A stretch of DNA of 34,243 nucleotides from Rubrivivax sp. (lineage in GTDB: Bacteria > Pseudomonadota > Gammaproteobacteria > Burkholderiales > Burkholderiaceae_C): contig JALHOU010000023.1 of NCBI GenBank assembly GCA_022842825.1, positions 1 to 34,243 of the forward strand. The letters run 5' to 3'. Positions 2,389 through 34,243 of this stretch are shown piece after piece. Under the pieces are notes generated by a model, which saw nothing but the letters and a program-made list of their open reading frames with translations, was not told the origin of the DNA and searched no databases. Every line of letters starts with the position of its first letter. The first letter of the stretch is position 1. The translations under genes were made by a program, and so were the position numbers.

Positions 2389-2436
2389 AACGCCTCGCGG
2401 GCGCGCGGCGCCGAGGCCGACCCGCGGTAGATCACG

Positions 2437-3843
2437 TCACCAGGCCACCAGCACCGAGGCACCGAAGAGCTGGTTGGTCCTCTTGTACGTGCCGTCCTTG
2501 GCGACGAGGAAGACCGGACGGTCGGCGCGGTCGAGGCGGTATTCGACCTTGAACGTGGTGTTCAGGTCGTAGAGCCAGCCCATGCCCACGCTGATGGCGC
2601 TGCGGTTGGCTCCGCGGCTGCATTCGGCCACGGTGGGGTCCGTCACGCAGTCGAGCGTGGCGTCGACGCCCAGGCCGCTGCGGTTCTCGCCCAGCGAGCC
2701 GTTGGCTGGGTCCCAGTAGCCGGTGTAGCCGAGCAGGCCGCCGCCGTTCTTCTGGTTGCGGATGTGGTCCATGCGCACGATGCCTTCCAGGCGCGGCGTG
2801 AACTTGTGCGCCGCGAGGGCGGACAGGCCGGTCCACTGCGCGTCGCGCAGCGCGCCGGTGACGGGGTCGGGCGCGATGGCCGCGCCCTGGTGGCGGCCGT
2901 AGCTCAGCTGGCCCTGCACGGTCCAGTCGCCGCGAATGAAGTAGGCGTCGAACTCGAACAGATCGACCTTGGTCTTGGCCGCGGCCGCATCGGCGAAGTT
3001 GGCCGCCTTGCCGTGCACGCCGGCGAAGCCGAAGCCCTGGAACTCGCCACGCGAGTAGTCGACGCGGTAGGTGAAGACAGGCGACTTCTCGTCGGGGCCG
3101 TTGCGCGAGGCGTTCAGGTTCGCGAGCATGGCCTTGACGATCCACTTGCCGCGCGTGATCTCCAGGCCCGCGCCGGTGAAGCTGGTAGGCAGCGTGTAGT
3201 CGAACAGCAGGTTGTGCGTGATCAGCTTGTTCAGCGTCGGCTGCAGGTACTCGTAGCCCGACCAGTCGGGCAGGTGGCCGGCGATGAAGCGTGTCTGCAG
3301 GTCGGTGAGCGGGATGCTCACGCTCGCCTCGTGCACGACGCCGCCGTTGCCGATGACCGAATCGGTGCCGCGGTTGGGCACGAGTGTCAGGCGCCACTTG
3401 CTGCCCGACTCGGTCTCCTTCGTGAAGTCGAGCGAGACGGCGCCGAAGTAGGAGTTGTCGTAGTGGTAGCCGTCGTCGGCGACGTTGTTGATGAACTGGA
3501 AGCCGGCGCGGCCCTGGTTCTTGTTGTAGATGTACGTGGGGTCGGCGTAGCCGGAGATCTTGAGGCCCTTGTAGCCCTGGTCGGTGAAGGCGTCCTGCAT
3601 CGCCTCGGCCTTGACGCCGATGCGGCTGAGCTCGCGTGCCTGCTCGGGCGTCATGCCCCACTGTCCGGGTTGTGCGGGCGGCGCGGCCTGGCTCTGGATC
3701 TTGCGCTCCAGTTCCAACACGCGCTCACGCAGTGCGCGCAACTCCTCCAGGACGGCGGCGGGCGTGGGCTGCTGCTGCGCCACAGCCGGGAATGCGGCGG
3801 CCACGGCGAGCGCCACGAGAGCTTTTTGTGCGGTGGTCTTCAT
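2437..3843 (-). CDS. Outer-membrane beta-barrel protein, DUF3138-like
   Basis: A 468-residue exported protein. Residues 1-23 form a signal peptide (Met-Lys-Thr-Thr, a hydrophobic core, Ala-Val-Ala). A coiled-coil-like stretch rich in Glu, Leu and Arg follows (Val-Leu-Glu-Glu-Leu-Arg-Ala-Leu-Arg-Glu), as in several trimeric porins. The rest has alternating aromatic/polar strands and ends in an aromatic residue (Val-Ala-Trp), as expected for BAM-dependent barrels. It resembles the Burkholderiales proteins grouped as DUF3138, recognised from memory. The ATG at 3843 is fixed by a full AGGAGG 8 nt upstream and by the signal peptide; an in-frame upstream start gives no signal peptide. It lies 61 bp after potI and 48 bp before the GlnT-like gene, so it is probably co-transcribed with the importer and may serve as an outer-membrane route for the same substrates. 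Confidence 0.8.
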   Translation of the reverse strand: MKTTAQKALVALAVAAAFPAVAQQQPTPAAVLEELRALRERVLELERKIQSQAAPPAQPGQWGMTPEQARELSRIGVKAEAMQDAFTDQGYKGLKISGYADPTYIYNKNQGRAGFQFINNVADDGYHYDNSYFGAVSLDFTKETESGSKWRLTLVPNRGTDSVIGNGGVVHEASVSIPLTDLQTRFIAGHLPDWSGYEYLQPTLNKLITHNLLFDYTLPTSFTGAGLEITRGKWIVKAMLANLNASRNGPDEKSPVFTYRVDYSRGEFQGFGFAGVHGKAANFADAAAAKTKVDLFEFDAYFIRGDWTVQGQLSYGRHQGAAIAPDPVTGALRDAQWTGLSALAAHKFTPRLEGIVRMDHIRNQKNGGGLLGYTGYWDPANGSLGENRSGLGVDATLDCVTDPTVAECSRGANRSAISVGMGWLYDLNTTFKVEYRLDRADRPVFLVAKDGTYKRTNQLFGASVLVAW

Positions 3844-3904
3844 GAGGGGCTCCTCCTGGAGTGGGGTCGGGGTCGATCGGAACAAACCTGGTGGTGCGGT
3901 GCGC

Positions 3905-4771
3905 TCACGCGTGGGCCGCGGCGGCCAGTTCGGCCTGGTGCTTGCGCTCGGCGTTGGCGATGAACCAGCTCGCGGCCACGATGCCGATGGCGATGATCAC
4001 GATGATGACGGTGGCCACGGCATTGACGCTCGGGTCCAGCCCCAGGCGTGCGCGCGAGAAGATGACCAGCGGCATGGTGGTCGACCCGGGGCCGCTGAGA
4101 AACGCCGAGAGCACCACGTCGTCCAGCGAGATGGTGAAGGTGAGCAGCCAGGCCGAGATCAGGCTTTGCGCGACCATCGGCAGCGTCACCAGCCAGAAGA
4201 CCTGATGCGGACGCGCCCCCAGGTCCATCGCCGCCTCCTCGAGCTGCGGCGGCATCGCCTGCAGGCGCGACTGGATCACCACCGTGGCGTAGGCCATGCC
4301 CAGCAGCAGGTGGCCGAGCCAGATCGTGCCCATGCCGCGTTCCGGGAAGCCGACGCCGAAGGTCGCCTGCGTCGCACGCTGCACGCTCACCAGCATCAGC
4401 AACAGCGAGAGGCCGATCACCACCTCGGGCATCACCAGCGGCGCGTTGACCATGCCGGAGAAGAGCGTGCGCCCGGTGAAGCGCTTGTACTTCACCAGCG
4501 CGAAGGCGGCGAGAGTGCCCAGCACCACCGAGCCGCTGGCGGTGAGAAAGGCGATCTTCAGGCTCAGCCATAGCCCGGCCAGCAGCTCGGCATCCTGCAC
4601 CAGTGCCGCGTACCACTTCAACGTGAAGCCGCGCCAGACGTTGGGCAACGGCGAATCGTTGAACGAGTACAGCACCAGCGCCACGATGGGCAGGTACAGG
4701 AACAGATAGCCGAAGCCGAGCCAGCCGCGGCCGAACCAGCGGTTGAAGCGCGCCGAGGTGCCGAGCTTCAC
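3905..4771 (-). CDS. potI: Putrescine/spermidine ABC transporter permease, PotI-like
   Basis: A 288-residue inner-membrane protein with six predicted helices and the binding-protein-dependent permease EAA loop (Glu-Glu-Ala-Ala-Met-Asp-Leu-Gly-Ala-Arg), which docks on the ATPase. Phrases such as Leu-Tyr-Ser-Phe-Asn-Asp-Ser and the Phe-Thr-Leu-Lys-Trp-Tyr segment are typical of PotC/PotI. The start is a GTG overlapping the stop of the upstream permease by 4 bp (GTGA), a sign of translational coupling; its length is close to E. coli PotI. It forms the channel with the PotH-like partner and is powered by the PotG-like ATPase. SpuH is the equivalent name in Pseudomonas. Confidence 0.93.
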   Translation of the reverse strand: MKLGTSARFNRWFGRGWLGFGYLFLYLPIVALVLYSFNDSPLPNVWRGFTLKWYAALVQDAELLAGLWLSLKIAFLTASGSVVLGTLAAFALVKYKRFTGRTLFSGMVNAPLVMPEVVIGLSLLLMLVSVQRATQATFGVGFPERGMGTIWLGHLLLGMAYATVVIQSRLQAMPPQLEEAAMDLGARPHQVFWLVTLPMVAQSLISAWLLTFTISLDDVVLSAFLSGPGSTTMPLVIFSRARLGLDPSVNAVATVIIVIIAIGIVAASWFIANAERKHQAELAAAAHA

Positions 4772-5712
4772 TTGGTGGACTCCTGCGCCTCGGCCTGATA
4801 TTTGCCGAAGATCGCCAGCGGCACGATGATGAGCAGCACCATCACCACGGCCACGGTGGAGGCCACCGGCCAGTCGTTGTTGCTGAAGAACTCGTCCCAG
4901 ATGACGCGGCCGATCATCAGCGTCTCCGGCCCACCGAGAAGCTCGGGGATGACGAACTCGCCGATGCACGGAATGAAGACCAGCATCGAGCCGGCGATGA
5001 TGCCCGCCTTGGACAGCGGCACCGTCACCTTCCAGAACCCCACCCAAGGCGTGGCGCCCAGGTCGGCGGCGGCCTCCAGCAGCCGCAGGTCCATCTTGGC
5101 CAGGTTGGCATAGAGCGGCAGCACCATGAAGGGCAGGTAGGTGTAGGTCATGCCGAGCACCAGCGAGAACGGGGTGTGCATCAGCTTGCCCGGCGCGGCG
5201 ATGAGCCCCAAGGCGTGCAGCACGTGGTCCAGGCCGCTGCCCACCACCAGCTCGGCGACCCAGCCGTGCTCGGTGAGCAGGCCGCGCCAGGCGTACACGC
5301 GAAGCAGGAAGGAGGTCCAGAACGGCAGCATCACCAGCATCACGAGCGCCGGTTGCACGGTCGCCCGGGCACGCGCCATGAAGTAGGCGAACGGATAGCC
5401 GATCAGCAGGCAAAGCACCGTCGTGGCGGCGGCGTAGCGGATGCTCGACAGGTAGGTCTTGAAGTAGAGGTCGTCGCTGGCGAGGAAGGCGTAGTTCGAC
5501 AGCTTCAGCTTGAGCGTGAGCACGCCGTCGACAAGGGCCAGCACCGGCTTGAAGGTGGCCGTCTCCATCTCGGAGACGCTGATCTTGCCGACGATGAAGA
5601 AGGGCGCCAGGAAGAACAGCAGCAGGAAGAGCATCGGCAGGGCGATGACGGCCGTGCGGCCGCTGAACAGGCCGCGGGCCAGCGTGCTTGCGATGCGCTT
5701 GGGGCCGCCCAT
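4768..5712 (-). CDS. potH: Putrescine/spermidine ABC transporter permease, PotH-like
   Basis: A 314-residue inner-membrane protein with an N-terminal helix, a periplasmic stretch and five further helices, closing with the EAA loop (Glu-Ala-Ala-Ala-Asp-Leu-Gly-Ala-Thr-Pro). The Leu-Leu-Arg-Val-Tyr-Ala-Trp segment is typical of PotB/PotH. It starts 19 bp after the potG stop and overlaps potI by 4 bp, so the three genes are one transcription and translation unit. Its length matches E. coli PotH. It is the first half of the heterodimeric import channel. Confidence 0.93.
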   Translation of the reverse strand: MGGPKRIASTLARGLFSGRTAVIALPMLFLLLFFLAPFFIVGKISVSEMETATFKPVLALVDGVLTLKLKLSNYAFLASDDLYFKTYLSSIRYAAATTVLCLLIGYPFAYFMARARATVQPALVMLVMLPFWTSFLLRVYAWRGLLTEHGWVAELVVGSGLDHVLHALGLIAAPGKLMHTPFSLVLGMTYTYLPFMVLPLYANLAKMDLRLLEAAADLGATPWVGFWKVTVPLSKAGIIAGSMLVFIPCIGEFVIPELLGGPETLMIGRVIWDEFFSNNDWPVASTVAVVMVLLIIVPLAIFGKYQAEAQESTK

Positions 5713-5731
5713 GACCGTGCCGGCTGCGGCG

Positions 5732-6829
5732 CTACTGCGTCAACACCACGTGGGACGACGGTGACCAGGAGGCCCAGACGGCGTCGCCCCAGGTGACCTC
5801 CTCGTCGCGATGGCGCTCGGTGTTGGCCTCGCTCGCCTTCAGCACCGCGCCGCTGGGCAGCGCGAGGTGGTAGACGGTGAAGCTGCCGAAATACGACTTC
5901 TCCTTCACCGTGCCCTGCACGGCGTTGTGCGCCGTGTCCGGGGGCGGCTCGCGGCCGACGACGATCTTCTCCGGCCGAAGGGCCACGGTGACGGCCATGC
6001 CCTCGGTGCCGGTGATGCCGTGCCCGACATAGTGCCTCACGTCAGCGCAGCCGATCACGCAGTGGTCGGCCGCATCCACATCCAGCGTGCCTTCCATGAG
6101 GTTGACGTTGCCGATGAAGTCGGCGACGAAGCGGCTGTGCGGCGTCTCGTACAGCTCGCCCGGCGCGCCGATCTGCATGAAACGGCCGTCCTTCATCACC
6201 GCGATGCGCCCGGCCATGGTCATGGCCTCTTCCTGGTCGTGCGTGACCATGACGCATGTGACGCCGACCTGCTCGACGATGTTGACGAGCTCGATCTGCG
6301 TCTGCTCGCGCAGCTTCTTGTCGAGTGCGCCCAGGGGCTCATCGAGCAGCAGCAGCTGCGGCTGCTTGGCCAGGCTGCGTGCCAGCGCCACGCGCTGCTG
6401 CTGGCCTCCGGACAGCTGGTGCGGCTTGCGCTGCGCGAACTTGCCCAGTTGCACCAGCTTGAGCACGGTCTCCACGCGTTCGGCCACCTGCTCCCTGGGC
6501 TTGCCCTCGCGCTTGAGGCCGAAGGCGATGTTCTCCCACACCGTCAGGTGCGGGAACAGGGCGTAGCTCTGGAACATCATGTTGATGGGCCGCTCGAACG
6601 CCGGCATGCCGACCAGGTCCTGCCCATTGAGCAGGATGCGGCCGGAGGTCGGCGTCTCGAAGCCCGCCAGCATGCGCAGCAGCGTGCTCTTGCCGCAGCC
6701 GGAGGGGCCGAGCAGGGCGAAGATCTCGCCCTTGGCGATGTCGAGGCTGACGTTGTCGACGGCGCGATAGGCGCCGAACTCCTTGACGACGTCGACGATG
6801 CGCAGGAAGGCGCCGGCCGTCTCAGCCAT
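5732..6829 (-). CDS. potG: Putrescine/spermidine ABC transporter ATP-binding protein, PotG-like
   Basis: A 365-residue ABC ATPase. Walker A is Gly-Pro-Ser-Gly-Cys-Gly-Lys-Ser-Thr at residues 41-49. A Q-loop (Met-Met-Phe-Gln-Ser-Tyr-Ala-Leu-Phe-Pro), the signature Leu-Ser-Gly-Gly-Gln-Gln-Gln-Arg, Walker B Leu-Leu-Leu-Leu-Asp-Glu-Pro and the switch His (Val-Thr-His-Asp-Gln-Glu-Glu-Ala) follow in order. The C-terminal third is the TOBE regulatory region (Leu-Arg-Pro-Glu-Lys-Ile). It lies 24 bp after the potF-like gene and 19 bp before potH. It drives polyamine uptake by the PotH/PotI channel; SpuF is the Pseudomonas name. Confidence 0.95.
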   Translation of the reverse strand: MAETAGAFLRIVDVVKEFGAYRAVDNVSLDIAKGEIFALLGPSGCGKSTLLRMLAGFETPTSGRILLNGQDLVGMPAFERPINMMFQSYALFPHLTVWENIAFGLKREGKPREQVAERVETVLKLVQLGKFAQRKPHQLSGGQQQRVALARSLAKQPQLLLLDEPLGALDKKLREQTQIELVNIVEQVGVTCVMVTHDQEEAMTMAGRIAVMKDGRFMQIGAPGELYETPHSRFVADFIGNVNLMEGTLDVDAADHCVIGCADVRHYVGHGITGTEGMAVTVALRPEKIVVGREPPPDTAHNAVQGTVKEKSYFGSFTVYHLALPSGAVLKASEANTERHRDEEVTWGDAVWASWSPSSHVVLTQ

Positions 6830-6853
6830 GGTGCGATGCTCCGCGTCGCACCT

Positions 6854-7975
6854 CTACAGGCCCGTCTTGAACGACGTGTAGGTGCGTGTCATCAGCCGGC
6901 GCAGGTCGTTGTTCAGCGCATCCGGCGGCACCATCTTGGCCAGTTCCGCCGGTGGCAGGAAGACGGTGGGGTTGGCCGCGATCTCGGGCTTGACATGCGG
7001 GCGCGAGCCGGTGTTCGGGTTGGCGTAGAAGACCTTGTTGGTCAGCGAGGCATGCACCTCCGGACGCAGGATGTAGTTGATGAACTTGTGCGCGTTGCCC
7101 GGGCGCGGCGCATCGGCCGGGATGACCATCACGTCGAAGAACAGCAGGCCGCCGTTCTTGGGCAGCAGGGCCTGGATGTTGTGGCCGGTCTTGCCTTCGA
7201 TGGCGCGCTGGCGCGCGATGTTGATGTCGCCGCTCCAGCCCAGCGAGACGCAGATGGAGCCGTTGGCCATGTCGTTGATGTAGCCCGACGAGCTGAACAG
7301 CGTGACATGCGGCCGCACGCTCTTGAGCAGGGCGGCAGCCTGGGCGTAGTCGCTCGTGTTCTTGCTGAACGGCGGCCTGCCCAGGTAGTGCAGGGCGGCC
7401 GGCACGACCTCGGTGGCCGAGTCGAGGAACGAGACGCCGCAGCTCTTGACCTTGCTGATGTACTCGGGCTTGAAGACGAGGTCCCAGACGTTGTCGGGCA
7501 TCGGCGTGCTGCCCAGCGCCGCCTTGACCTTGTCGACGTTGATGCCGACGGTGGTGAAGCCCCAGAGCCAGTTGACCATGTACTCGTTGCCCGGGTCCAT
7601 GCGCGCCAACTGGCTGAGCACGGTGGGATCGAGGTTCTTAAGGTTGGGCAGCTGCCCCTTGTCCAGCTTGCGCAGGAGGCCACCGTCGATCTGCAGCTTG
7701 GCCCAGTTGGAGCTGGGCATCACGATGTCGTAGCCGGTCTTGCCGGCCACCAGCTTGGCGTGGACGATCTCGTTGTTGTCGAAATTGTCGTAGCGCACGC
7801 GGATGCCGGTCTCGCGCTCGAAGTTGCGGATGGTGTCGTCGGCGATGTAGTTCGACCAGTTGTAGATGTTCAGCACCGGCTCCTCGGCCTGGGCCGAGGC
7901 GGTGCCGCTGAGCACGGCAAGGGTGGCGGCGACACCGGCAGCGAGGGCCGAGACGACTTTCTGGGCGCGGGACAT
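6854..7975 (-). CDS. potF: Periplasmic polyamine-binding protein, PotF/SpuD-like
   Basis: A 373-residue periplasmic solute-binding protein. The signal peptide is about residues 1-28 (Ser-Arg-Ala-Gln-Lys, a hydrophobic core, Ala-Ser-Ala). The mature part starts with Leu-Asn-Ile-Tyr-Asn-Trp-Ser-Asn-Tyr-Ile, a hallmark of PotD/PotF proteins, and carries the aromatic and acidic residues expected to bind diamines. The ATG at 7975 is set by GGAGG 8 nt upstream and by the signal peptide. It hands putrescine or spermidine to the PotG-PotH-PotI complex encoded just downstream. The 158 bp in front hold a good -24/-12 sequence (8033-8048), so the import genes may have their own sigma-54 promoter. Specificity for putrescine over spermidine cannot be decided by eye. 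Confidence 0.94.
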   Translation of the reverse strand: MSRAQKVVSALAAGVAATLAVLSGTASAQAEEPVLNIYNWSNYIADDTIRNFERETGIRVRYDNFDNNEIVHAKLVAGKTGYDIVMPSSNWAKLQIDGGLLRKLDKGQLPNLKNLDPTVLSQLARMDPGNEYMVNWLWGFTTVGINVDKVKAALGSTPMPDNVWDLVFKPEYISKVKSCGVSFLDSATEVVPAALHYLGRPPFSKNTSDYAQAAALLKSVRPHVTLFSSSGYINDMANGSICVSLGWSGDINIARQRAIEGKTGHNIQALLPKNGGLLFFDVMVIPADAPRPGNAHKFINYILRPEVHASLTNKVFYANPNTGSRPHVKPEIAANPTVFLPPAELAKMVPPDALNNDLRRLMTRTYTSFKTGL

Positions 7976-8032
7976 CAGCGTTTCCTCCGGGCGGCAAGAC
8001 AGGGGCGGGGGGCAAGGATGCCCATTCCCCAT

Positions 8033-8048
8033 TGCAAGCCACGGGCCA
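8033..8048 (-). promoter_or_regulatory. Putative sigma-54 (-24/-12) promoter before potF
   Basis: The minus strand reads TGGCCCGTGGCTTGCA. Against the RpoN consensus TGGCAC-R-N4-TTGC-W it differs at one defined position, and the invariant GG and GC are separated by exactly 10 nt. Transcription would start near 8022, giving a leader of about 47 nt before the potF ATG at 7975. Sigma-54 control of nitrogen-source uptake genes is well known; activity here is inferred. No clear NtrC-type enhancer was seen in the 85 bp upstream. Confidence 0.6.
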
Positions 8049-8133
8049 GCGGTTGGGCTATCCGGGGAAGCGCGCGGATGTTGCGCGCCGGCCAACGCCG
8101 CTCAGGTGGCCCTCGGACGGCGATCGGCGGCGT

Positions 8134-9540
8134 TCAGGACGCGTTCAGCCAGCCTTCCCGCACGGCGTCGGCGAGCGTCAGGTCGAGGCAGCGGCGTATC
8201 AGGCCGACCATTTCGTCGATCTGTGCGCGCGTGATGACCAGGGGCGGCGCGATGATCATGCGGTCGCCGACGGCGCGCATGATGAGCCCTTCGCGGAAGC
8301 AATGGCCGCGGCAGACCATGCCGATCTCGCGCTCGGGCGCGAAGGCCGTGCCCTTGGCCTTGTCGGCCACGAGCAGCAGGGCACCCATCAGGCCGCAGGT
8401 TTCGGCGTCGCCCACGAGCGGGTGAGCCGCGAGCTCGCGGTATGCCGCTGCAAGATAGGGCCCCACGTCGGTGCGGACGCGCTCCACCAGCCCCAGGGTG
8501 CGGATCAGGCGCACGTTGGCCAGGCCAACGGCGCAGGCCACGGGGTGCCCGGAGTAGGTGTAGCCATGTGCGAACTCGCCGCCGCGCTCGATGAGCACCT
8601 TGGCCACGCGGTCGCCCACCATGACGCCGCCAAGCGGCACGTAGCCGCTCGTCACGCCCTTGGCAAAGGTCATCAGGTCGGGCCGGCTGCCCAGCGTCTC
8701 GCAACCGAACCATTGGCCGGTGCGGCCGAAACCGCAGATGACTTCGTCGCTGACGAGCAGCACGCCGTACTTGTCGCAGATGCGCTGCACCTCCGGCCAG
8801 TAGGTCGACGGCGGAATGATCACGCCGCCGGCACCCTGCACCGGCTCGCCGATAAAGGCGGCCACCCGGTGTGGACCGAGCTCGAGGATGCGGTCTTCGA
8901 GCCAGCTGGCGGCGAGCAGGCCGAACTGCTCGCGCGACAACCCCTGGTGGCGGCCTTGATCCCACCAATAGGGCTGGGGGATGTGCACGATGCCGGGAAT
9001 CGGCAGCCCGCCTTGCGCATGCATGCCGGACATGCCGCCCAGCGAAGCCCCAGCCATGGTGCTGCCGTGGTAGGCGTTGTGGCGGCTGATGATGATGTCG
9101 CGCCCGGGCTCGCCGAGCACGTCCCAGTAGCGCCGCACCATGCGCACGATGGTGTCGTTGCCTTCGCTGCCCGAGCCGCTGAAGAAGACGTGCTCGAAGC
9201 CGGGCGGGCTGACCTCGGCCAGCAACTCGGCCAGCTCGATGGCCGGCGGCGTGGCCGTCTGGAAGAAGGCGTTGTAGAAGGGCAGCTCGCCGAGCTGCTT
9301 CGTCGCCGCGTCGATGAGGGCCTTCTGGCCGTAGCCGACGTTGACGCACCATAGGCCGCTCATGGCGTCGAGGATCTTGGTCCCGTCACTGTCCCAGAGG
9401 TAGATGTTGTCGGCGCGCGTGATGATGCGCGCGCCCTTCTTCGCCAGCGATTGGAAGTCGGTGAAGGGATGCAGGAAGTGGCGCGCGTCGGCGGCCTGCC
9501 ATTCCTGGGTGCTGCGGGTGCTGCTCGAAGGGCGGTTCAT
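8134..9540 (-). CDS. spuC: Class III aminotransferase, SpuC-like (putrescine/polyamine:pyruvate)
   Basis: A 468-residue PLP enzyme of the class III (omega) aminotransferases. The PLP lysine is Lys294 in Phe-Ala-Lys-Gly-Val-Thr-Ser-Gly-Tyr, with Asp265 (Ser-Asp-Glu-Val-Ile-Cys-Gly-Phe-Gly-Arg-Thr-Gly) contacting the ring nitrogen. Ser-Gly-Ser-Gly-Ser-Glu-Gly-Asn-Asp near residue 125 binds phosphate. The Leu-His-Pro-Phe-Thr-Asp-Phe opening is typical of SpuC and related amine:pyruvate enzymes. It lies 54 bp downstream of the PuuA-like ligase and before potF, the same place as spuC in the Pseudomonas spu cluster. It probably converts putrescine or a glutamylated polyamine to the aldehyde with pyruvate as acceptor. 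The ATG at 9540 has GGAG upstream. Confidence 0.88.
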   Translation of the reverse strand: MNRPSSSTRSTQEWQAADARHFLHPFTDFQSLAKKGARIITRADNIYLWDSDGTKILDAMSGLWCVNVGYGQKALIDAATKQLGELPFYNAFFQTATPPAIELAELLAEVSPPGFEHVFFSGSGSEGNDTIVRMVRRYWDVLGEPGRDIIISRHNAYHGSTMAGASLGGMSGMHAQGGLPIPGIVHIPQPYWWDQGRHQGLSREQFGLLAASWLEDRILELGPHRVAAFIGEPVQGAGGVIIPPSTYWPEVQRICDKYGVLLVSDEVICGFGRTGQWFGCETLGSRPDLMTFAKGVTSGYVPLGGVMVGDRVAKVLIERGGEFAHGYTYSGHPVACAVGLANVRLIRTLGLVERVRTDVGPYLAAAYRELAAHPLVGDAETCGLMGALLLVADKAKGTAFAPEREIGMVCRGHCFREGLIMRAVGDRMIIAPPLVITRAQIDEMVGLIRRCLDLTLADAVREGWLNAS

Positions 9541-9594
9541 GCGAAGGCTCCGACGTGGGGAAGCAAGGGGGGCATGGCAGGCGAATGACGCGAG

Positions 9595-10962
9595 TCAGAC
9601 GTGCAGCAAGAGGTGCTCGCGTTCCCACGACGAGATCACCTTCATGAACTCGGCGTACTCGATCTCCTTGATCTCGGAGTAGACCGTGACGAAGCCCTGG
9701 CCGAGCACCTCGGCGAGGTCCTTCTCGGCGCGCAGTTGCTGCAGTGCCTCGCCCAGGCTGCGCGGCAGCTGGTAGTCGCCGAGATAGGCGTCGCCCTTGC
9801 ACTCGGCGCTGGGCTCGATGCGGTTGACGATGCCGAGGTAGCCGCAGGCCAGCGTGGCGGCCAGCGCCACGTAGGGGTTGGCGTCGGCGCCGATGACGCG
9901 GTTCTCGATGCGCCGGGCCGCCGGCGGCGCCACCGGGCTGCGGATGCCCACCGTGCGGTTGTCGGTGCCCCACTGGATGTTGATCGGTGCGGAGCTCGAA
10001 CGGGCGAGGCGCCGGTAGCTGTTGACATACGGCGCGAAGAGCGCCATCGCCGCCGGGATGTACCTCTGCAGGCCGCCGATGTACCAGAAGAACTCGCGGC
10101 TCGGCGTGCCGTCCTCGTTGCTGAAAATGTTGCGCCCACCCGCCTTCTCCACCACGCTCTGGTGCACATGCATGGCGCTGCCGGGCTCGCCGGCGATCGG
10201 CTTGGCCATGAAGGTAGCGAACATGTCGTGCCGCATCGCCGCCTCGCGCACCGTGCGCTTGAATAGAAAGACCTCATCGGCCAGCCCGAGCGGGTGGTCG
10301 TGGAAGAAGTTGATCTCCATCTGGCCGGCCCCGACCTCGTGGATCAGCGTGTCGACGTTGAGCTCCATCTTCTCGCAGTAGTCGTAGACGTCCTCGAAGA
10401 GTGGGTCGAATTCGTTGACGGCGTCGATGGAGTAGGCCTGCCGGCTCGTCTCGCTACGGCCGCTGCGGCCGATGGGCGGCTTCAGCGGCACGTCGGGGTC
10501 GGTGTTGCGGGCCACGAGATAGAACTCGAGCTCCGGGGCCACCACGGGGCTCCAGCCCTTGGCGTCGTACAACTCGCAGACGTGCCGCAGCACCGAGCGC
10601 GGCGCATACGGCACGAGCAGGCCGTCGCGGTCGTAGCAGTCGTGGATGACCTGCGCCGTCGGGTCGCTGGCCCAGGGCACGATGCACACCGTGCTCGGGT
10701 CGGGGCGCAGGTGCATGTCGCGGTCGGTGGGGTTGATGACGTCGTAGTACGGCCCCTCCTCGGGGAACTCGCCGGTGACGCCCATCGCGACAACCACCTC
10801 GGGCAGGCGCATGCCGCGGTCCTCGGTGAACTTCTCGCGCGGCAGGATCTTGCCGCGCGCCACGCCGGTGAGGTCAGGCACGAGGCACTCGATCTCGGTG
10901 ACGCGGCGTTCGTTGAGCCAGCTCTCGAGCTCGCTGAAGGTGAAGTGGGACTTGGAGTTCAT
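9595..10962 (-). CDS. puuA: Gamma-glutamylpolyamine synthetase, PuuA/SpuB-like
   Basis: A 455-residue glutamine-synthetase-fold ligase. It has the N-terminal Val-Pro-Asp-Leu-Thr-Gly-Val-Ala-Arg-Gly-Lys, Pro-Glu-Leu-Glu-Phe-Tyr, Glu-Val-Gly-Ala-Gly-Gln-Met-Glu-Ile-Asn-Phe, Gly-Ser-Ala-Met-His-Val-His-Gln and Asn-Ser-Tyr-Arg-Arg-Leu motifs of the PuuA/SpuB/SpuI group, and lacks the tyrosine adenylylation region of GlnA. It should couple glutamate to an amino group of putrescine (or a longer polyamine) with ATP, the first step of the gamma-glutamylation route. The ATG at 10962 was preferred over an in-frame start at 11025 because the extension looks unlike this family. A weak ribosome site (AAGGG) lies somewhat far upstream. 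The hydrolase for the last step is immediately upstream. Confidence 0.9.
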   Translation of the reverse strand: MNSKSHFTFSELESWLNERRVTEIECLVPDLTGVARGKILPREKFTEDRGMRLPEVVVAMGVTGEFPEEGPYYDVINPTDRDMHLRPDPSTVCIVPWASDPTAQVIHDCYDRDGLLVPYAPRSVLRHVCELYDAKGWSPVVAPELEFYLVARNTDPDVPLKPPIGRSGRSETSRQAYSIDAVNEFDPLFEDVYDYCEKMELNVDTLIHEVGAGQMEINFFHDHPLGLADEVFLFKRTVREAAMRHDMFATFMAKPIAGEPGSAMHVHQSVVEKAGGRNIFSNEDGTPSREFFWYIGGLQRYIPAAMALFAPYVNSYRRLARSSSAPINIQWGTDNRTVGIRSPVAPPAARRIENRVIGADANPYVALAATLACGYLGIVNRIEPSAECKGDAYLGDYQLPRSLGEALQQLRAEKDLAEVLGQGFVTVYSEIKEIEYAEFMKVISSWEREHLLLHV

Positions 10963-11102
10963 GGGTTGGGTGCCCTTGAGGGCGGCAAATCTTCTGGGTC
11001 GTATGGCGGCCGGGTGGCGGGACACCCACGCCGGCAGGAAACGGGATGTCGGCGCCCAAGGCCGCGAGGTGGGCCCGCGGCCGGTCGCGGGCGGCAGGCG
11101 GC

Positions 11103-11936
11103 TCAGGCGCCGACCGAGGCTGGCTCAGGCGCCAGCGGGGGATGCGGCAGCGGCTCGCGCGGGATGCCACCCGCCTGCTCGCGGTACGTGCGCACCGCCT
11201 CGCCGAAGGCTGCGAACAGGCGACAAGAGACGGGGTTCTCGGCCGCCTTCCATTCAGGGTGCCATTGCACGCACAGGTTGAAGCCCTGTGCGCCGGCGTG
11301 GCGGAAGGCCTCGACCAGCCCGTCGGGCGCAGTGGCCTCGACCACCAGCCCGGGAGCGAGCTGCTTCATGCCCTGGCCGTGCACGGAGTTCACCTCGAAG
11401 CAGGTGCTGCCGACGATCGATGCCAGCCGGCCGCCGGGCACCACGTGCACCGGGTGCGCGGGCCCGTACTGCGCCTCGGCCGGCCGATCGGCGGGGGCGC
11501 GGTGGTCGGCGTGGCCTGCCACGTCCTGCACGGCCTGGTGCAGCGTGCCACCGAGCGCGACGTTGAACTCCTGCGCACCGCGGCAGATGGCAAGGAGCGG
11601 CATGCCGCGCGCCAGGGCGGCGCGGACGAGCGGCAGCGTCCAGGCGTCGCGCTGCGGGTCCAGTGGCAGCGTCTCGTCGAGCACGGCCTCGCCGAAGTGG
11701 GAGGGGTGCACGTTGGACACCGAGCCGGTGAGCAGCACGCCGTGCGCGAGGTCGAGCGTGGTTTCGATCTCCTCGGGCTCCAGGCGCGGCACGACGAGCG
11801 GCAGTGCGCCGGCCAGGCGCACCGCCTCGACATACTTTCGCCCGGCGACATGGAATGGGTGATCGCCCAACGGTTTGTTGCAGGCCGGCACCAACACCAC
11901 AGGCTTGCCGGCAGGGGATCGGGAGTTCGTCTTCAT
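11103..11936 (-). CDS. puuD: Gamma-glutamyl-GABA hydrolase, PuuD/SpuA-like
   Basis: A 277-residue class I glutamine-amidotransferase-fold hydrolase. The nucleophile is Cys118 in Leu-Leu-Ala-Ile-Cys-Arg-Gly-Ala-Gln-Glu; His226 and Glu228 in Val-Gln-Trp-His-Pro-Glu-Trp complete the triad. Leu-Leu-Thr-Gly-Ser-Val-Ser-Asn-Val-His-Pro matches the family's oxyanion-loop region. It would cleave gamma-glutamyl-GABA to GABA and glutamate, the last step of the Puu route. A GTG 12 nt further upstream (11948) is an alternative start; neither has a strong Shine-Dalgarno. It follows the PuuB-like oxidase after 21 bp and precedes puuA by 140 bp. Confidence 0.9.
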   Translation of the reverse strand: MKTNSRSPAGKPVVLVPACNKPLGDHPFHVAGRKYVEAVRLAGALPLVVPRLEPEEIETTLDLAHGVLLTGSVSNVHPSHFGEAVLDETLPLDPQRDAWTLPLVRAALARGMPLLAICRGAQEFNVALGGTLHQAVQDVAGHADHRAPADRPAEAQYGPAHPVHVVPGGRLASIVGSTCFEVNSVHGQGMKQLAPGLVVEATAPDGLVEAFRHAGAQGFNLCVQWHPEWKAAENPVSCRLFAAFGEAVRTYREQAGGIPREPLPHPPLAPEPASVGA

Positions 11937-11957
11937 CGTCGCTGCCACAGGGGCGCT

Positions 11958-13286
11958 CTAGGCAAGGATATCGCGCAGGCGATACCAAGCCATCCCGAGG
12001 ACCAGGGCCGGCGTGCGCAGCGCCGCGCCCCCCGGGAAGTTTCGGTGCTTCAGGCGCGCGAACACATCGAAGCGGGAGGCGTCGCCCGCCATCGCCTCGG
12101 CCACCAGGCGCCCGGCCAGCCCGGTGAGCGCGAGGCCGTGGCCCGAGAAGCCCTGCAGGTAGTAGACGTTTTGCGGAGTGCCGGCGTGCGCAGGCGGAAG
12201 ACGGCCGAAGTCGGGCGCCCGGCTCATCGAGATGTCGACGAAACCGCCCCAGGCGTATTCGACCCGGCTGTGGGCCAGCTGCGGGAACGTGGCCACCATG
12301 CGCTGTCGCATGCTCTCGGGCAGTTTGGCCGGCGTGGTGGTGCTGTAGCTGACGCGTCCGCCGTAAAGCATGCGGTGGTCGGCCGTGGCGCGGAAGTAGT
12401 CGAGCACGAAATTGGTGTCGCACACGGCGCTGCCTGAAGGCACGAGGCTGAGTGCCAGCGCGGGGTCGAGTGCTTCGCTGCAAGCGATGTACGTGCCGAC
12501 CGGCATGACGCGCGACGCCAGCGGCGCAGCCAGCGGCGGGCGGCTGGCATGCAGGTAGACATTCCCGGCCAGAAGCACCTGCTTGGCCGTGACCTGGCCG
12601 CCCGCGCAACTCAGCACCGGGTGCGAACCCGGCTTCAGTGCCTGCACGGCCGTGTGTTCATGCAGCCGAACACCGGCAGCTGCCGCGGCGCGAGCCAGGC
12701 CAAGCGTGTACTTCAGGGGGTGCAGGTGGCCCGAACGGGCGTCGTGCAGGCCGCTGTGGAAGCGCGGGCTGGCGATCCAGCGCCCGATCTCGGCCGGTTC
12801 GATGCGCCTGAGCGCGTAACCGTAGCGCGACTCGATGCGATCGGCCCACGTCGCCAGGTTGCGGCCCTTGCGTTCATTGGTGGCCAGGCTCAAGTAGCCG
12901 TCGCGCCAGTCGCAGTCGATGCCGTGCTCGGCAATACGCTGGCGCAGCAGGTCCAGCGCCTCGATCGACATGGCCCAGACGCGCCGCGCCTCGTCAAGGC
13001 CGAGCTGGGCTTCGATCGTCTCCTGGTCGCAGGCAAGCCCGTGGATCGCCTGCCCGCCGTTGCGCCCGCTGGCACCGAAGCCGACTTCGCGCGCCTCAAG
13101 CAGCACGACGTCGAAGCCGCGTCCCCGCAGGTCAATGGCCGCCGAGAGGCCGGCCAGCCCGCCGCCCACCACCGCCACGTCGCAGTGGGTGTCGCCCTGG
13201 AGGGCCGGATGAAACTGAGTCCGCGCCGCGGTGGCGGCGTAGTAGGAATGGCGGGTCAGCTCCTGATCGGTGTCGAGCAAGGGCAT
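11958..13286 (-). CDS. puuB: FAD-dependent gamma-glutamylputrescine oxidase, PuuB-like
   Basis: A 442-residue D-amino-acid-oxidase-type flavoprotein. The FAD dinucleotide fold is Val-Val-Gly-Gly-Gly-Leu-Ala-Gly at residues 39-46, ending with an acidic residue in Leu-Leu-Glu-Ala. Gly-Ala-Ser-Gly-Arg-Asn-Gly-Gly-Gln follows, as in PuuB and PauB proteins. The C-terminal Tyr-Leu-Gln-Gly-Phe-Ser-Gly-His-Gly-Leu closes the FAD site. It would oxidise gamma-glutamylputrescine to gamma-glutamyl-aminobutyraldehyde with release of ammonia and peroxide. Glycine or sarcosine oxidase relatives look alike, but the neighbours (puuD, puuA) make PuuB/PauB the best choice. The aldehyde dehydrogenase expected next in the route is not in this window. 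Confidence 0.88.
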   Translation of the reverse strand: MPLLDTDQELTRHSYYAATAARTQFHPALQGDTHCDVAVVGGGLAGLSAAIDLRGRGFDVVLLEAREVGFGASGRNGGQAIHGLACDQETIEAQLGLDEARRVWAMSIEALDLLRQRIAEHGIDCDWRDGYLSLATNERKGRNLATWADRIESRYGYALRRIEPAEIGRWIASPRFHSGLHDARSGHLHPLKYTLGLARAAAAAGVRLHEHTAVQALKPGSHPVLSCAGGQVTAKQVLLAGNVYLHASRPPLAAPLASRVMPVGTYIACSEALDPALALSLVPSGSAVCDTNFVLDYFRATADHRMLYGGRVSYSTTTPAKLPESMRQRMVATFPQLAHSRVEYAWGGFVDISMSRAPDFGRLPPAHAGTPQNVYYLQGFSGHGLALTGLAGRLVAEAMAGDASRFDVFARLKHRNFPGGAALRTPALVLGMAWYRLRDILA

Positions 13287-13380
13287 GGGCAGGCGGGGGA
13301 AGGTATGCGCTAGGCAGGCCCTCGGTGGTGCGGAAGTGGCGCGATGGTAGTGTGCGTGGCAGGGGAGACCCGGTCAGGAC

Positions 13381-14739
13381 TCAGGCGGCGCGCCGGATGG
13401 CACCGCGCAGCGTGTCGACGATCTGGTCGATCTGACCCTTCTCGACGATGAGCGGCGGCGAGAGCGCGACGATGTCGCTGGTGGTGCGCACGAGCACGCC
13501 CTGCTTCCAGCAGTCGAGGAAGATGTTGAAGGCGCGCTTGGTCGGCTCGCCGGCCATCGGCGTGAGCTCGATGCCGCCGATGAGGCCGAGATTGCGGATG
13601 TCGATGACGTTGGGCTCGCCCTTCAGCGAGTGCACGGCGTCGGCAAAGTAGCCCTCGAGCTCCTTGGCGCGCGTGAGCAGGCCCTCCTCGGCATAGACGT
13701 CAAGCGTGGCGATGCCGGCGGCGCAGGCCAGCGGGTGCGCCGAGTAGGTGTAGCCATGGAAGAACTCGATCAGGTGCTCGGGCCCGTTCATGAAGACGTC
13801 GTGGATCGCCTGCTTGGCGATCACGGCGCCCATCGGCACCGTGCCGCTGGTGATGCCCTTGGCGCAGGTGATGAGGTCGGGCGTGACGCCGAAGGTCTGG
13901 GCCGCAAACGCGCTGCCGGTGCGGCCGAAGCCGGTGATGACCTCGTCGAAGATGAGCAGGATGCCATGCTTGTCGCAGATCTCGCGCAGGCGCTTGAGGT
14001 AGCCCTGCGGCGGCATCAGCACGCCGGTGGAACCGGCCACCGGCTCGACGATGACCGCGGCGATGGTGCTGGCGTCGTGCAGCGCCACCAGGCGCTCGAG
14101 GTCGTCGGCGAGTTCGGCGCCGTGCGCCGGCAGGCCGCGCGTGAAGGCGTTGCGCGCCGGGTCGTGCGTGTGACGGATGTGGTCCACGCCGGTGAGCAGC
14201 GAGCCGAAGTGCTTGCGGTTGCTGACGATGCCGCCCACCGAGATGCCGCCGAAGTTGACGCCGTGGTAGCCGCGCTCGCGGCCGATGAGGCGGGTGCGCG
14301 AACCTTCACCGCGCACGCGGTGGTAGGCGATGGCCATCTTGAGCGCCGTCTCCACCGCCTCGCTGCCGCTGTTGGTGAAGAAGACGCGGTTCATGCCCGC
14401 GGGCGCGATCGCGGCGACACGCTCGGCCAGCTCGAACGACTTCGGGTGCCCCATCTGGAATGCCGGGGCGAAGTCCATCTCCGCGGCCTGGTCCTGGATG
14501 GCCTTGACGATGCGCGGGCGCGAGTGGCCGGCATTGACGCACCACAGCCCCGCCACGGCATCGAGCACCTGGCGGCCGTTGGCGTCCCAGTAGTGCATGC
14601 CCTGCGACTTGACGAGCAGGCGCGGCGCCTTCTTGAACTGCCGGTTGGCGGTGAACGGCATCCAGTGCGCGTCCATCGCAAGCTGGCTGCCCGTGGCCTC
14701 GGCGGCATGCATCAGGGCGGGGTCGATGGCCTTGTTCAT
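13381..14739 (-). CDS. Omega-amino acid:pyruvate-type aminotransferase
   Basis: A 452-residue class III PLP aminotransferase. Lys294 in Thr-Cys-Ala-Lys-Gly-Ile-Thr-Ser-Gly is the PLP lysine and Asp265 in Ile-Phe-Asp-Glu-Val-Ile-Thr-Gly-Phe-Gly-Arg-Thr-Gly is its partner. Asp-Ala-His-Trp-Met-Pro-Phe-Thr-Ala-Asn-Arg-Gln-Phe near residue 23 is the N-terminal signature of omega-amino acid (beta-alanine):pyruvate aminotransferases. It could remove the amino group of beta-alanine (from spermine/spermidine breakdown), GABA or putrescine. It is distinct from the SpuC-like enzyme at 8134-9540. It is the first gene of the minus-strand island, preceded by GGGAG, a -24/-12 sequence and a divergent Lrp-type regulator. 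Confidence 0.9.
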   Translation of the reverse strand: MNKAIDPALMHAAEATGSQLAMDAHWMPFTANRQFKKAPRLLVKSQGMHYWDANGRQVLDAVAGLWCVNAGHSRPRIVKAIQDQAAEMDFAPAFQMGHPKSFELAERVAAIAPAGMNRVFFTNSGSEAVETALKMAIAYHRVRGEGSRTRLIGRERGYHGVNFGGISVGGIVSNRKHFGSLLTGVDHIRHTHDPARNAFTRGLPAHGAELADDLERLVALHDASTIAAVIVEPVAGSTGVLMPPQGYLKRLREICDKHGILLIFDEVITGFGRTGSAFAAQTFGVTPDLITCAKGITSGTVPMGAVIAKQAIHDVFMNGPEHLIEFFHGYTYSAHPLACAAGIATLDVYAEEGLLTRAKELEGYFADAVHSLKGEPNVIDIRNLGLIGGIELTPMAGEPTKRAFNIFLDCWKQGVLVRTTSDIVALSPPLIVEKGQIDQIVDTLRGAIRRAA

Positions 14740-31358: not shown

Positions 31359-34243
31359 TCACACCATCTCCGCCACCGTCGATGGCAACTCGCCCCGCGC
31401 CAGCGCAGGCATCGCCTTGGCAAACAGTGTCGGCTCCTGGACGATGCGTACGAACGGCTTGGCCGATCCCGGCGGCCCGACGATCAGCCCACCCACCGGA
31501 TCGCCCGCGCGCACGAGGAACCGCCACCAGGCATCGCTGCCGGCCGCCGCCTGGAACGTCTGGTCGCCTGGTTCGGCATTCATTGCGCCGAAGCTGCGCA
31601 CGTCAATACCGTCGCACTTCAGCTGAACGATCTGCCGGCTGGGCGGCATGACGGCGACCTCCCCAAAGATGCTCTCGACCAGCACTGAGGCCTGCGCCGC
31701 ACCGATCGGCCACAGGCCGCGTGCGGACCCCGCCAACTCGGCGCAGTCGCCGGCAGCCAGCACGTGCGGGTCGCTGGTGCGCATCTGCGCATCGACGCGG
31801 ATGCCCGCGCCGACATCGATGCCGGCCGTCTCGGCCAGGAAGACGTTGGGCTGGATGCCCAGGCAGGCCACGAACAGATCGGCCCGCACTCGCGGTCCAT
31901 GCGCCAGCCAAGCGGCCGCAATCTCCGGCGTCCCGTCGTAGCGGGTGATCTGCACATCGGTCACCACCTGCACACCGATGCTCTCCAGGTAGTTGGTGAG
32001 CACGGTGGCCCCCTGCTTGTCCAGCTGCGCGTTCATCAGCCGATCAGCGCGGTGCAGCAACGCGACCTTGAGTCCGAGCTTGTGCAAGGCGTCGGCCGCC
32101 TCGACCCCAAGCACGCCGCCGCCCACCACCACGGCGCGCCGCGCCCGCTGCGAGCGCACATACTCGCGGATGGACTCGGCGTCCGCGGCCGTGCGCAACA
32201 CAAAGGCGTTGGGATGCTCCATGAAGCCCGCGTCGGGCAGGCTCGCGCGGGCGCCGGTCGTCAGCACCAGCCGGTCGTACGGCAGCCACTCGCCGCCGGA
32301 GAGGCCGAGCCGCTTCTGCTCGCGGTCGATGCGCGCCGCCACCCGCCCATGCAACGCCTGGATGCCGTTCGATTGCGCCCAGTCCGGCGTCACCAGGTGC
32401 AGGGCCTCCATGCCCTCGGGGTCGTGCACGAGCCGTCCGATGCCCATGCGGTTGTAGAACCGGTGCGGCTCGTTGGTGACGATGGTGATGTGCACGGTCG
32501 GGCTGCTGCGCCGTATGCCCTCGGCCACGCTCATCCCCGCGACACCGTTGCCGACGATGACGACACGCTTCACGTCGGTGCCGCGCGCGCGGTCCAGGCG
32601 CGCCGCGGCGGCGATCGTCGCTGGGTCGGCCCGCGGAGCGGCCGAGCGCGCATCGCGGTCGATCGTCACCGGCCCGCTCACCACGCACATGCAGGCCAGG
32701 CGAACGTTGCCGTCCAGGCCCATGCGGCGCAGCGTGGCCTTCTCGTCCGCATTCATCGGCGAGAGATGGTCCGAGCCGTCGCAGATGGCGATGGCGTCCG
32801 CGCCGCATACGCCGGCGCGGCAGCCGTAATTGATCTTCAGCCCGGCCTTTTCGATCGCCTCCAGCAGGGTGCCGTCGCTGGCTGCCTGGAAAGTGATTCC
32901 CGTTTCGCGGTCGGTCACCTCGACGGCGTCGTTCTGGGCCAGCCGCTCCTTGAGGCTACGCCCGCCGCCGAAGCGGGACTTTGCGTCGGCGCCCTCCGAG
33001 GCCGGCCGGGCCGCAGCCTCGACCTTGGCGGCGCGCGAAGCGGCCTGCACGCGCGCAAACCGTCGTTCGGCGCGCAGGCCGGCGCCGCCGAGCGCCACGG
33101 CCAGAACCACGCCGACCCCGCGGGAAGCCAGGCGCAGCCAATCCGGCGCCGCGCCATCAGCCAGCTTCGCCAGGCTCGCCACGATGATCGGCCCGGCAAA
33201 GAAGTAGAAGATGCTGATGGCTGCCGCGCCAAAGACCAGCGAGACGCGGTAGGCGTTGGCCGGCACGAAGGCCAGTGCGATGCCGTAGATGCCGGCCGAC
33301 GTGGCCGCCCCGCCCAGCAGCAGCGCCAGGCCCGCGGCGGGATGCTGCAGGCCAAGCGGCTGGGCCAGGAAGTAGCCCAGCAGCAACCCCGGCAGGAGGC
33401 CCATGAACAGCCGGCGCTGCGAGGCGTAGCGCGGGTCGTCGTCGTATACGTCGCTGAAGACCGCGGCGCGCGGGTTGAAGTCGTAGCAGTTCTTCTGGCA
33501 GCCCAGGCACGGGTCGCAATAGCCGTTGCGCACGACGACCAACGGCGCCTGACCATAGGTGCGCTGGATCGGCCCGAGCGGGCAGAAGGTGCCGCACCAT
33601 CCGCTGCGCCCCTTGAAGAACCAGCCGCCCACCAAGGCTGCGGCCAGCATCCCGAAAACGACGACGCCCACCGTCGGCCCGTGATGGTTGAGCCAAGGCT
33701 GCCGCAGAGCGACGGCGCCGATGAAGAGGACAAGCGCAATGGTGAAGGCCGAGTTCTTCAGCGTCGCCGGCAACTCCAGCGCCCTGCTCTTGCCCAGGGC
33801 GCGGGGCAACTGGTTCAACGCGGCCATCGGGCAGATCTGCCGCCACAGGCCCGGCGCCACCACCAGCAGTGCCGGGACCACCGGAATGGCCAGGCCCCAG
33901 AACAGCAGCAGGCCGAGCTCGGGCTCGATGATGAGCACCGCGCCCATCGCCATCGCGACGACAAGGGCACCAGCTCGCAAGGCGATCCACAGCCCCTCCG
34001 GGCCCTGCGCCGCCATCTGTGTGTAGTTGCGGAAGTAGCGTCCCGCCGCTTCGGCCAGCCGCGCCTCGCGGCCTTCGCGCTCAGCCGTCAACGCGGAAGG
34101 CGGCGCGGCCGCCGTCTTTGCCGGGCTCTGCGTCGGCCGTGGTCGCGCGGCCGGGCCCGAAGCCACGGTGGCGCCCGGCCGGGTGCCCGCCGGCGGCGGC
34201 CCCTTGATCACGGTTCCGGGCAGCGACGCCTTCGGGCCGGTAA
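31359..34243 (-). CDS. Multidomain membrane redox protein: 4Fe-4S, 2Fe-2S ferredoxin and FAD/NAD reductase (5' partial)
   Basis: At least 950 residues; the frame is still open at the window edge, so the true start is probably outside. Numbering from a GTG at 34211: a Pro/Ala-rich linker (1-45); about nine membrane helices (75-380) carrying Cys127-Pro-Met, Cys206-Gly-Thr-Phe-Cys210-Pro, and Cys232-Asp-Pro-Cys235-Leu-Gly-Cys238-Gln-Lys-Asn-Cys242, as in NapH/NosR/CcoG-type polyferredoxins; a 2Fe-2S ferredoxin (430-520) with Cys464, Cys469, Cys507 and an Asp at the place of the usual third Cys; a disulfide-reductase-type FAD/NAD part (547-860) with Gly-Asn-Gly-Val-Ala-Gly, Val-Gly-Gly-Gly-Val-Leu-Gly and Ala-Ala-Gly-Asp-Cys-Ala; and a C-terminal domain as in NirB-like reductases. 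It should pass electrons between NAD(P)H and a membrane or soluble acceptor. The pathway is unknown. Confidence 0.85.
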   Translation of the reverse strand, partial: TGPKASLPGTVIKGPPPAGTRPGATVASGPAARPRPTQSPAKTAAAPPSALTAEREGREARLAEAAGRYFRNYTQMAAQGPEGLWIALRAGALVVAMAMGAVLIIEPELGLLLFWGLAIPVVPALLVVAPGLWRQICPMAALNQLPRALGKSRALELPATLKNSAFTIALVLFIGAVALRQPWLNHHGPTVGVVVFGMLAAALVGGWFFKGRSGWCGTFCPLGPIQRTYGQAPLVVVRNGYCDPCLGCQKNCYDFNPRAAVFSDVYDDDPRYASQRRLFMGLLPGLLLGYFLAQPLGLQHPAAGLALLLGGAATSAGIYGIALAFVPANAYRVSLVFGAAAISIFYFFAGPIIVASLAKLADGAAPDWLRLASRGVGVVLAVALGGAGLRAERRFARVQAASRAAKVEAAARPASEGADAKSRFGGGRSLKERLAQNDAVEVTDRETGITFQAASDGTLLEAIEKAGLKINYGCRAGVCGADAIAICDGSDHLSPMNADEKATLRRMGLDGNVRLACMCVVSGPVTIDRDARSAAPRADPATIAAAARLDRARGTDVKRVVIVGNGVAGMSVAEGIRRSSPTVHITIVTNEPHRFYNRMGIGRLVHDPEGMEALHLVTPDWAQSNGIQALHGRVAARIDREQKRLGLSGGEWLPYDRLVLTTGARASLPDAGFMEHPNAFVLRTAADAESIREYVRSQRARRAVVVGGGVLGVEAADALHKLGLKVALLHRADRLMNAQLDKQGATVLTNYLESIGVQVVTDVQITRYDGTPEIAAAWLAHGPRVRADLFVACLGIQPNVFLAETAGIDVGAGIRVDAQMRTSDPHVLAAGDCAELAGSARGLWPIGAAQASVLVESIFGEVAVMPPSRQIVQLKCDGIDVRSFGAMNAEPGDQTFQAAAGSDAWWRFLVRAGDPVGGLIVGPPGSAKPFVRIVQEPTLFAKAMPALARGELPSTVAEMV

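Follow-up and report, generated by a model that had tools for sequence, protein, structure and literature searches.

A membrane Fe–S module, a ferredoxin and an FAD/NAD(P) reductase fused in one Rubrivivax protein, with signal-sensing domains encoded beside it

The window studied here is the whole stretch of 34,243 nucleotides that forms contig JALHOU010000023.1 (C23) of a Rubrivivax sp. draft genome in 502 contigs (assembly GCA_022842825.1). At its right end, a minus-strand open reading frame (ORF) of 960 codons remains open to the window edge and encodes a membrane iron–sulfur (Fe–S) module, a ferredoxin and a flavin reductase in a single chain, in the Pfam order Fer4_5, Fer2, Pyr_redox_2. 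The original prediction, made from the letters of this window, had placed these three partners in one polypeptide. The open frame, the Pfam order and the recurrence of the arrangement in 71 of 80 related loci bear this out, and neither the frameshift nor the assembly join that it had considered was seen between the modules. The features of the ORF are as follows.

31359..34241, minus strand: three-module fusion ORF, from ORF reading; 55 more codons lie on contig C57, 1015 amino acids in total
34029..34241, minus strand: Pro/Ala-rich N-terminal stretch, no Pfam domain
33009..34028, minus strand: NapH-like membrane module with eight predicted transmembrane helices, from hydropathy, AlphaFold, alignment and profiles; side of the Fe–S loops presumed
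33828..33845, minus strand: WX3CP motif (W84-x3-C88-P89), without variation across all 70 rows of alignment A4 (see below)
33579..33596, minus strand: CX3CP motif (C167, C171, P172), from alignment A4
33480..33518, minus strand: CX2CX2CX3C-x-D, secure predicted 4Fe-4S motif with invariant Asp, from the alignments
32679..32915, minus strand: Fer2 [2Fe-2S] ferredoxin domain, from Pfam
32796..32798, minus strand: invariant Asp (GCRAGVCGAD) where the third Cys ligand would stand, in all 73 rows
31728..32567, minus strand: Pyr_redox_2 FAD/NAD(P) reductase of the putidaredoxin reductase/BphA4/NirB-N type, from Pfam, NCBIfam and a structure match

The rightward extension that had been proposed as a check located the start of the protein. 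The end of contig C57 overlaps the end of the window by 145 bases with one mismatch, and the fusion frame continues there for 55 codons up to an ATG. Since the previous in-frame stop lies only four codons before this ATG, the window protein carries no extra N-terminal domain; Pfam detected no family in the part of the N-terminus encoded on C57. The suggestion that the Pro/Ala-rich start hints at a further domain was thus rejected for this protein and finds its counterpart only in Actinomycetota relatives, which do have a fused FHA domain. Across the join, the gene order is acyl-CoA dehydrogenase, FHA gene, cyclic-nucleotide-binding domain (CNBD) gene, fusion, ankyrin gene and TatD gene; the last two are named by reading, which here and below means that no profile stands behind the name. 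A relative, G012 (locus L030), has the identical order on a single 967-kb contig, with the ankyrin and TatD genes on the other strand, and this supports the join. The first two genes of the operon therefore encode an FHA protein and a CNBD protein, both beyond the window edge and outside the view of the original prediction, so that its neighbours point to control of the enzyme and not to an acceptor.

The AlphaFold model of the window protein has a mean predicted local distance difference test (pLDDT) value of 90.1 and a predicted template modelling score (pTM) of 0.62, with the linker at residues 363-386 mostly below 50. The membrane unit modelled alone reaches a pLDDT of 93.1 and a pTM of 0.91 and shows eight long helices, in agreement with the hydropathy profile. 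Because this number is even, both ends and the Fe–S loops would lie on one side of the membrane, presumably the cytosolic one. The Fer4_5 match (residues 198-230) scores 21.2 bits in the whole chain against a cut-off of 22, and 23.9 bits in a scan of the membrane part by itself; it was found in 63 of 70 members of the family (E up to 0.1). In an alignment of 73 rows (71 loci, the window protein and a second copy from contig C3 of the same genome), six membrane Cys and the following Asp occur in every row, and the seventh Cys (C88) in 72. Alignment A3, the first model, omits loci L044, L066 and L100; alignment A4, the second, has 70 rows, omits these three as well as L069, L070, L074 and the C3 copy, and adds L104, L105, L107 and L110. 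Its motifs are W-x3-C-P, C-x3-C-P and C-x2-C-x2-C-x3-C-x-D. With seven conserved Cys and a single CX2CX2CX3C, the term polyferredoxin used earlier was an overstatement: the module holds one secure predicted 4Fe-4S site, and a second cluster would require the Cys of the CX3CP and WX3CP motifs together with a non-Cys ligand.

The nearest named profiles of this unit are NapH (23.1 bits, about a tenth of the NCBIfam cut-off of 234) and MauN (22.3 against 213). NapH membership was rejected on this score, and we regard the membrane part as a divergent NapH-like unit. NapH, NosR and RdhC share a unit of four helices with two CX3CP motifs, according to PMC5928378, where the membrane part of NapH is proposed to oxidise quinol and the function of the CX3CP motif is given as not known. 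The fusion resembles these proteins in its membrane helices, a CX3CP-type motif, a 4Fe-4S motif and a weak NapH profile score. It differs in having eight helices, one CX3CP and one WX3CP, and a single CX2CX2CX3C; an FMN domain was not found, and the pattern of two CX3CP and two 4Fe-4S motifs described for NapH and MauN in that paper does not apply. Searched against PDB sequences, the membrane part by itself gave no matches and its profile only two at chance level. Foldseek and VIA-align comparisons of the model gave only unrelated, low-scoring membrane proteins, a lack of match that excludes nothing.

The ferredoxin domain (Fer2, residues 443-521; 34.1 bits, above the PF00111 cut-off of 21) resembles plant-type [2Fe-2S] ferredoxins such as Ferredoxin-4 (9i2a, 47.7 bits) in its Fer2 profile. 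Unlike these, it has Asp at the third ligand place and so departs from the classical four-Cys set CX4CX2C...C; the other three Cys, like the Asp, are invariant in all 73 rows. E. coli SdhB is another protein with an Asp ligand at this place. A literature search for such an Asp ligand returned nothing, and the portion of PMC3538594 that could be searched contains no mention of one.

The reductase (Pyr_redox_2, residues 559-838; 174.7 bits, cut-off 26.1) has the two-dinucleotide-binding-domain flavoprotein fold and matches structures of the BphA4-like/putidaredoxin reductase type. Its best NCBIfam match is the N-terminal half of NirB (TIGR02374), ending at profile position 382 of 794; at 237 bits against a cut-off of 578.35, NirB membership was rejected. 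Putidaredoxin reductase, BphA4 and toluene dioxygenase reductase are soluble, free-standing enzymes linked to dioxygenases or P450s. Here, by contrast, the FAD module is fused to a ferredoxin and a membrane module, and no conserved oxygenase neighbour accompanies it. Of the 69 aligned rows with a residue at the position that follows the second strand in the NAD domain, 66 have Arg, as do listed T176R mutants of BphA4; yet P. furiosus 1xhc also reads HR, so that this residue does not tell a preference for NAD from one for NADP.

To collect the family, the membrane/ferredoxin alignment served as query in a scan of 84,980 species genomes. This yielded 110 confirmed stretches, the best 80 of which were studied as loci; their genes were called with an ORF script of our own, which gives only approximate ORF starts. 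Among the 71 loci with parts of all three modules in one ORF, the FAD part is shortened in four (L069 and L070 at a contig end, L044 and L074 inside a contig), leaving 67. The nine other loci comprise three that run off contigs (L080, L108, L109), a broken 170-residue ORF (L106) and five membrane units alone (L104, L105, L107, L110, L114). Carriers include Rubrivivax, Accumulibacter, Rhodoblastus, Lysobacterales, Chloroflexota, metagenome-assembled genomes (MAGs) of Verrucomicrobiota, Nocardia and Mycobacterium; Rubrivivax sp. A210, Andreprevotia and Nocardia are isolates. The distribution is patchy and scattered. Near-full-length matches occur at eight places in 6 of 41 genomes, that is, in five of 25 from the same genus and one of 16 others from the order (the window's own genome included), while a family-wide draw found the fusion in one of 100 genomes, again its own. 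A plasmid search with the membrane/ferredoxin part gave no matches. The second copy in the window's genome, on C3, has 929 amino acids; both types also occur in G012, and four genomes, as judged by contig names, have two loci, one each in the window and C3 groups of the tree (L036/L066, L037/L068, L038/L067, L039/L065).

Some of the unusual members deserve mention on their own. In Bradyrhizobium aeschynomenes (L114:7857-10349), a separate membrane-unit gene is followed by a Fer2 plus FNR-type reductase with an ordinary CX4CX2C, which looks like the same wire made with a non-homologous reductase. The Cys motifs are kept in the stand-alone units L104, L105, L107 and L110, three of which are titled Anaerolineae, Anaerolineaceae or Chloroflexi and one a Bacteroidetes MAG; in L105 and L107 the next gene encodes a protein of about 970 residues with tandem QGFSVSG repeats. 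A Rhizobiales MAG (L100:7728-8300) has a cupin-like N-terminus in place of the first membrane helices (Cupin_2, 18.7 bits against a cut-off of 27.2), so that the protein is a chimera or else has a third type of input domain.

The most consistent companions of the fusion are signal-sensing domains. Upstream of it on C57 lies a gene for a 167-residue CNBD protein (PF00027, 47.7 bits, cut-off 27.5), preceded by a 422-codon ORF with an FHA domain (PF00498, 60.5 bits) and a T6SS_FHA_C domain (37.1 bits). The C3 copy also has an upstream CNBD gene, after which its contig ends. The cassette of that protein, FGELAFFDGKPRSAT, is canonical, aligns with PKA-RI and qualifies as a cyclic-nucleotide cassette, whereas the window operon's cassette, FGMLGFLDGAPATV, lacks its Glu and Arg. 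The CNBD partner resembles Crp/PKA-type domains but stands alone (median ORF 160 amino acids, 41 loci) and accompanies a redox enzyme, not a DNA-binding or kinase module.

Within 6 kb, 59 of the 80 loci have a CNBD gene. In 58 of them it lies upstream of the enzyme gene and on its strand (overlapping an over-extended ORF start in L054 and L058), and in L088 it lies downstream. The 21 loci without one comprise nine with an FHA domain fused N-terminally to the enzyme, the five stand-alone membrane units, L064 with an FHA gene only, L037 and L093, which start at a contig edge, and four with neither CNBD nor FHA (L062, L071, L098, L100). An FHA gene stands beside 26 of the 59 CNBD genes, and the state of the cassette follows its presence: Glu is kept in none of these 26 versus 32 of the 33 without an FHA gene, and Arg in two of the 26 (L043, L061) versus 31 of the 33 (all except L088 and L109); both residues are kept in 31 of the 33. 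The FHA residues for phospho-threonine, which we take to follow the pattern GR/SxxH/NG[TS], are intact in the window operon's gene, in 24 of 27 FHA genes and in all nine fused domains; the three misses (L043, L049, L058) are ORFs of 149-228 codons in which only the C-terminal part of the gene is seen. The nine fusions are all from Actinomycetota, and no CNBD gene was found near any of them. As far as the contigs reach, a search with a single kinase as query (E up to 1e-5) placed a kinase homologue within 6 kb in seven of these nine loci and in none of the 27 FHA-gene loci; kinase domains were confirmed by Pfam in L084 (with PknH_C), L096 and L111.

In a tree of 68 of the 73 rows, rooted by midpoint only and without the truncated or odd N-termini of L044, L069, L070, L074 and L100, the FHA-fused loci and L098 form one group (support 100), which lies among CNBD rows from Actinomycetota, Chloroflexota and other lineages. 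A second group (support 93), made up of the FHA-gene loci plus L064 and L037, falls inside Pseudomonadota, and branches of support 100 separate the two, from which it appears that FHA was gained twice, separately. Because the labels are strongly clustered on the tree, the counts above reflect few events. The window's genome, with 20 kinase places and three of the nucleotide-cyclase family, is equipped for both inputs.

Two observations touch on these partners. Downstream of the FHA-fused enzyme in L089, L091, L092 and L097 (and L102 by reading) lies a convergent gene family, whose members in the four clustered loci encode 311-357 amino acids. An FHA domain (35.7 bits) is found towards the C-terminal end of the L091 protein, and the family may be a second FHA reader belonging to the system. 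In L071 (6027-12364), a full fusion lacking CNBD and FHA is flanked by the genes for a sigma-54 response regulator and for a GGDEF-EAL protein, which may represent another type of input.

Apart from enzyme, CNBD and FHA genes, no cluster of neighbours occurs in more than seven of the 80 loci; two reach seven, a protease-like gene (by reading; Rubrivivax and kin) and the kinases. This agrees with the earlier remark that no neighbour reveals the acceptor, and such a pattern speaks for control more than for a dedicated pathway. In L035 (12165-14549, genome G034), the CNBD-fusion pair is oriented divergently from a cytochrome-like gene (CxxCH, by reading). Elsewhere in the window, the genes at positions 1030-14739, mostly on the minus strand, look from sequence only like a cluster for the use and transport of putrescine/spermidine, with a glutamine-synthetase-like gene, an ABC transporter, two aminotransferases and an amidotransferase named by reading.

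We hypothesize that the fusion is a signal-gated, membrane-anchored NAD(P)H dehydrogenase whose conduction is controlled by its partners, with a rough probability of 0.45. The module order is compatible with the wire from NAD(P)H through FAD and 2Fe-2S to 4Fe-4S that had been proposed from the window. Hydride from NAD(P)H would enter at the C-terminal FAD domain, which would hand single electrons to the fused [2Fe-2S] ferredoxin with its three Cys and one Asp ligand. From there they would reach the 4Fe-4S site, on the cytosolic side of the eight-helix NapH-like module, and probably go on to the quinone pool; a gated dehydrogenase that feeds such a general acceptor is the most economical reading. 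A soluble partner may determine when this wire conducts, a gating role suggested by the genomic pattern. The commoner and probably older partner would be a separate CNBD protein whose cyclic-nucleotide cassette is intact. The window clade would instead use an FHA protein reading phospho-threonine, beside a CNBD that lacks ligand residues; this type appears to have switched from nucleotide to phospho-threonine input and to have kept the CNBD, which may now act as an adaptor for docking. The reader in Actinomycetota would be the FHA domain that is fused to the enzyme, usually with a kinase nearby. The signal may serve to open a relief valve for excess NAD(P)H.

Other explanations must be weighed against this one. 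Electrons might flow the other way, from quinol through the membrane 4Fe-4S site and the ferredoxin to FAD, making NAD(P)H at the expense of excess quinol or membrane potential. Several carriers come from lineages with phototrophic members (Rubrivivax, Rhodoblastus), and NapH is described in PMC5928378 as accepting electrons from quinol. However, the reductase fold is that of enzymes oxidising NADH to reduce ferredoxin, Nocardia, Chloroflexota and Accumulibacter are carriers as well, and none of the conserved neighbours was recognised as an ion-pumping subunit; we consider this direction unlikely. It is similarly doubtful that the acceptor is another membrane or peripheral protein encoded elsewhere, such as an oxygenase, a P450 or a thiol protein, for which the fusion would be a membrane-bound ferredoxin/ferredoxin-reductase supply unit. 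The closest solved relatives of the FAD domain do serve dioxygenases and P450s, but a P450-like cluster, named by reading and not by profile, occurs in just four of the 80 loci (L063, L098, L111, L112), in varying orientation and at varying distance.

The partners themselves might gate nothing and serve instead in the localisation or assembly of the enzyme, for example as a tether to another complex, the FHA gene being a relic of TagH from the type VI secretion system (T6SS). Like TagH, the FHA gene has the FHA and T6SS_FHA_C pair, and the retention of degenerate CNBDs after loss of their ligand residues suggests a structural role. Unlike TagH, no T6SS genes were seen beside it in the stretch of C57 that was read, and VipB lies on C178. 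A higher-scoring T6SS_FHA_C gene (181.7 bits) sits apart from the redox operon, on C69, beside genes reading as T6SS components, and we therefore rejected the operon's FHA gene as the main TagH. The conservation of Glu and Arg in CNBDs without FHA, and of the phospho-threonine residues in FHA, is moreover hard to explain without ligands, which leaves a purely localising role improbable. A third T6SS_FHA_C match (G000:C6:23553-24020, 40.7 bits) was also recorded, and no second redox operon was seen around it by reading. As for an artefact of gene prediction or assembly, with separate genes read as one, the window does end within the gene of a much-fragmented draft, and frames break in the FAD part of L044 and L074 and in the membrane part of L106. 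The same order in one frame, with an unshortened FAD part, in 67 of 80 loci including isolates makes this explanation negligible, and it was rejected.

Taken together, the modules of this protein are all known, while their combination, the Asp at the third ligand place within it and the repeated swap of sensors were not found described. The combination is absent from our Pfam, NCBIfam, PDB, plasmid and literature searches, the last of which reached little subscription literature; nor did a characterised role, raised earlier as a possibility, turn up in the profile libraries and literature searched. The papers that some of the literature searches did return do not, judged from titles and abstracts, deal with this family. 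Control of bacterial electron transport has mostly been studied at the level of transcription. More broadly, and as a possibility we hold at somewhat less than even chances, the family may consist of membrane wires driven by NAD(P)H with plug-in signal inputs, in which a cyclic-nucleotide default was twice independently replaced by FHA reading of phospho-threonine. A second messenger or a kinase would then switch respiratory electron flow directly and post-translationally, and the invariant Asp ligands in the ferredoxin and membrane sites would tune potentials. If the pairing with a partner that binds cyclic nucleotides or reads phospho-threonine holds, it would place electron flow under a direct and fast post-translational switch. 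With its input swapped on two separate occasions, such a switch is testable with one enzyme assay and two ligands, and the invariant ferredoxin Asp together with the Cys-poor NapH-like unit would offer a simple single-chain model of electron entry into the membrane.

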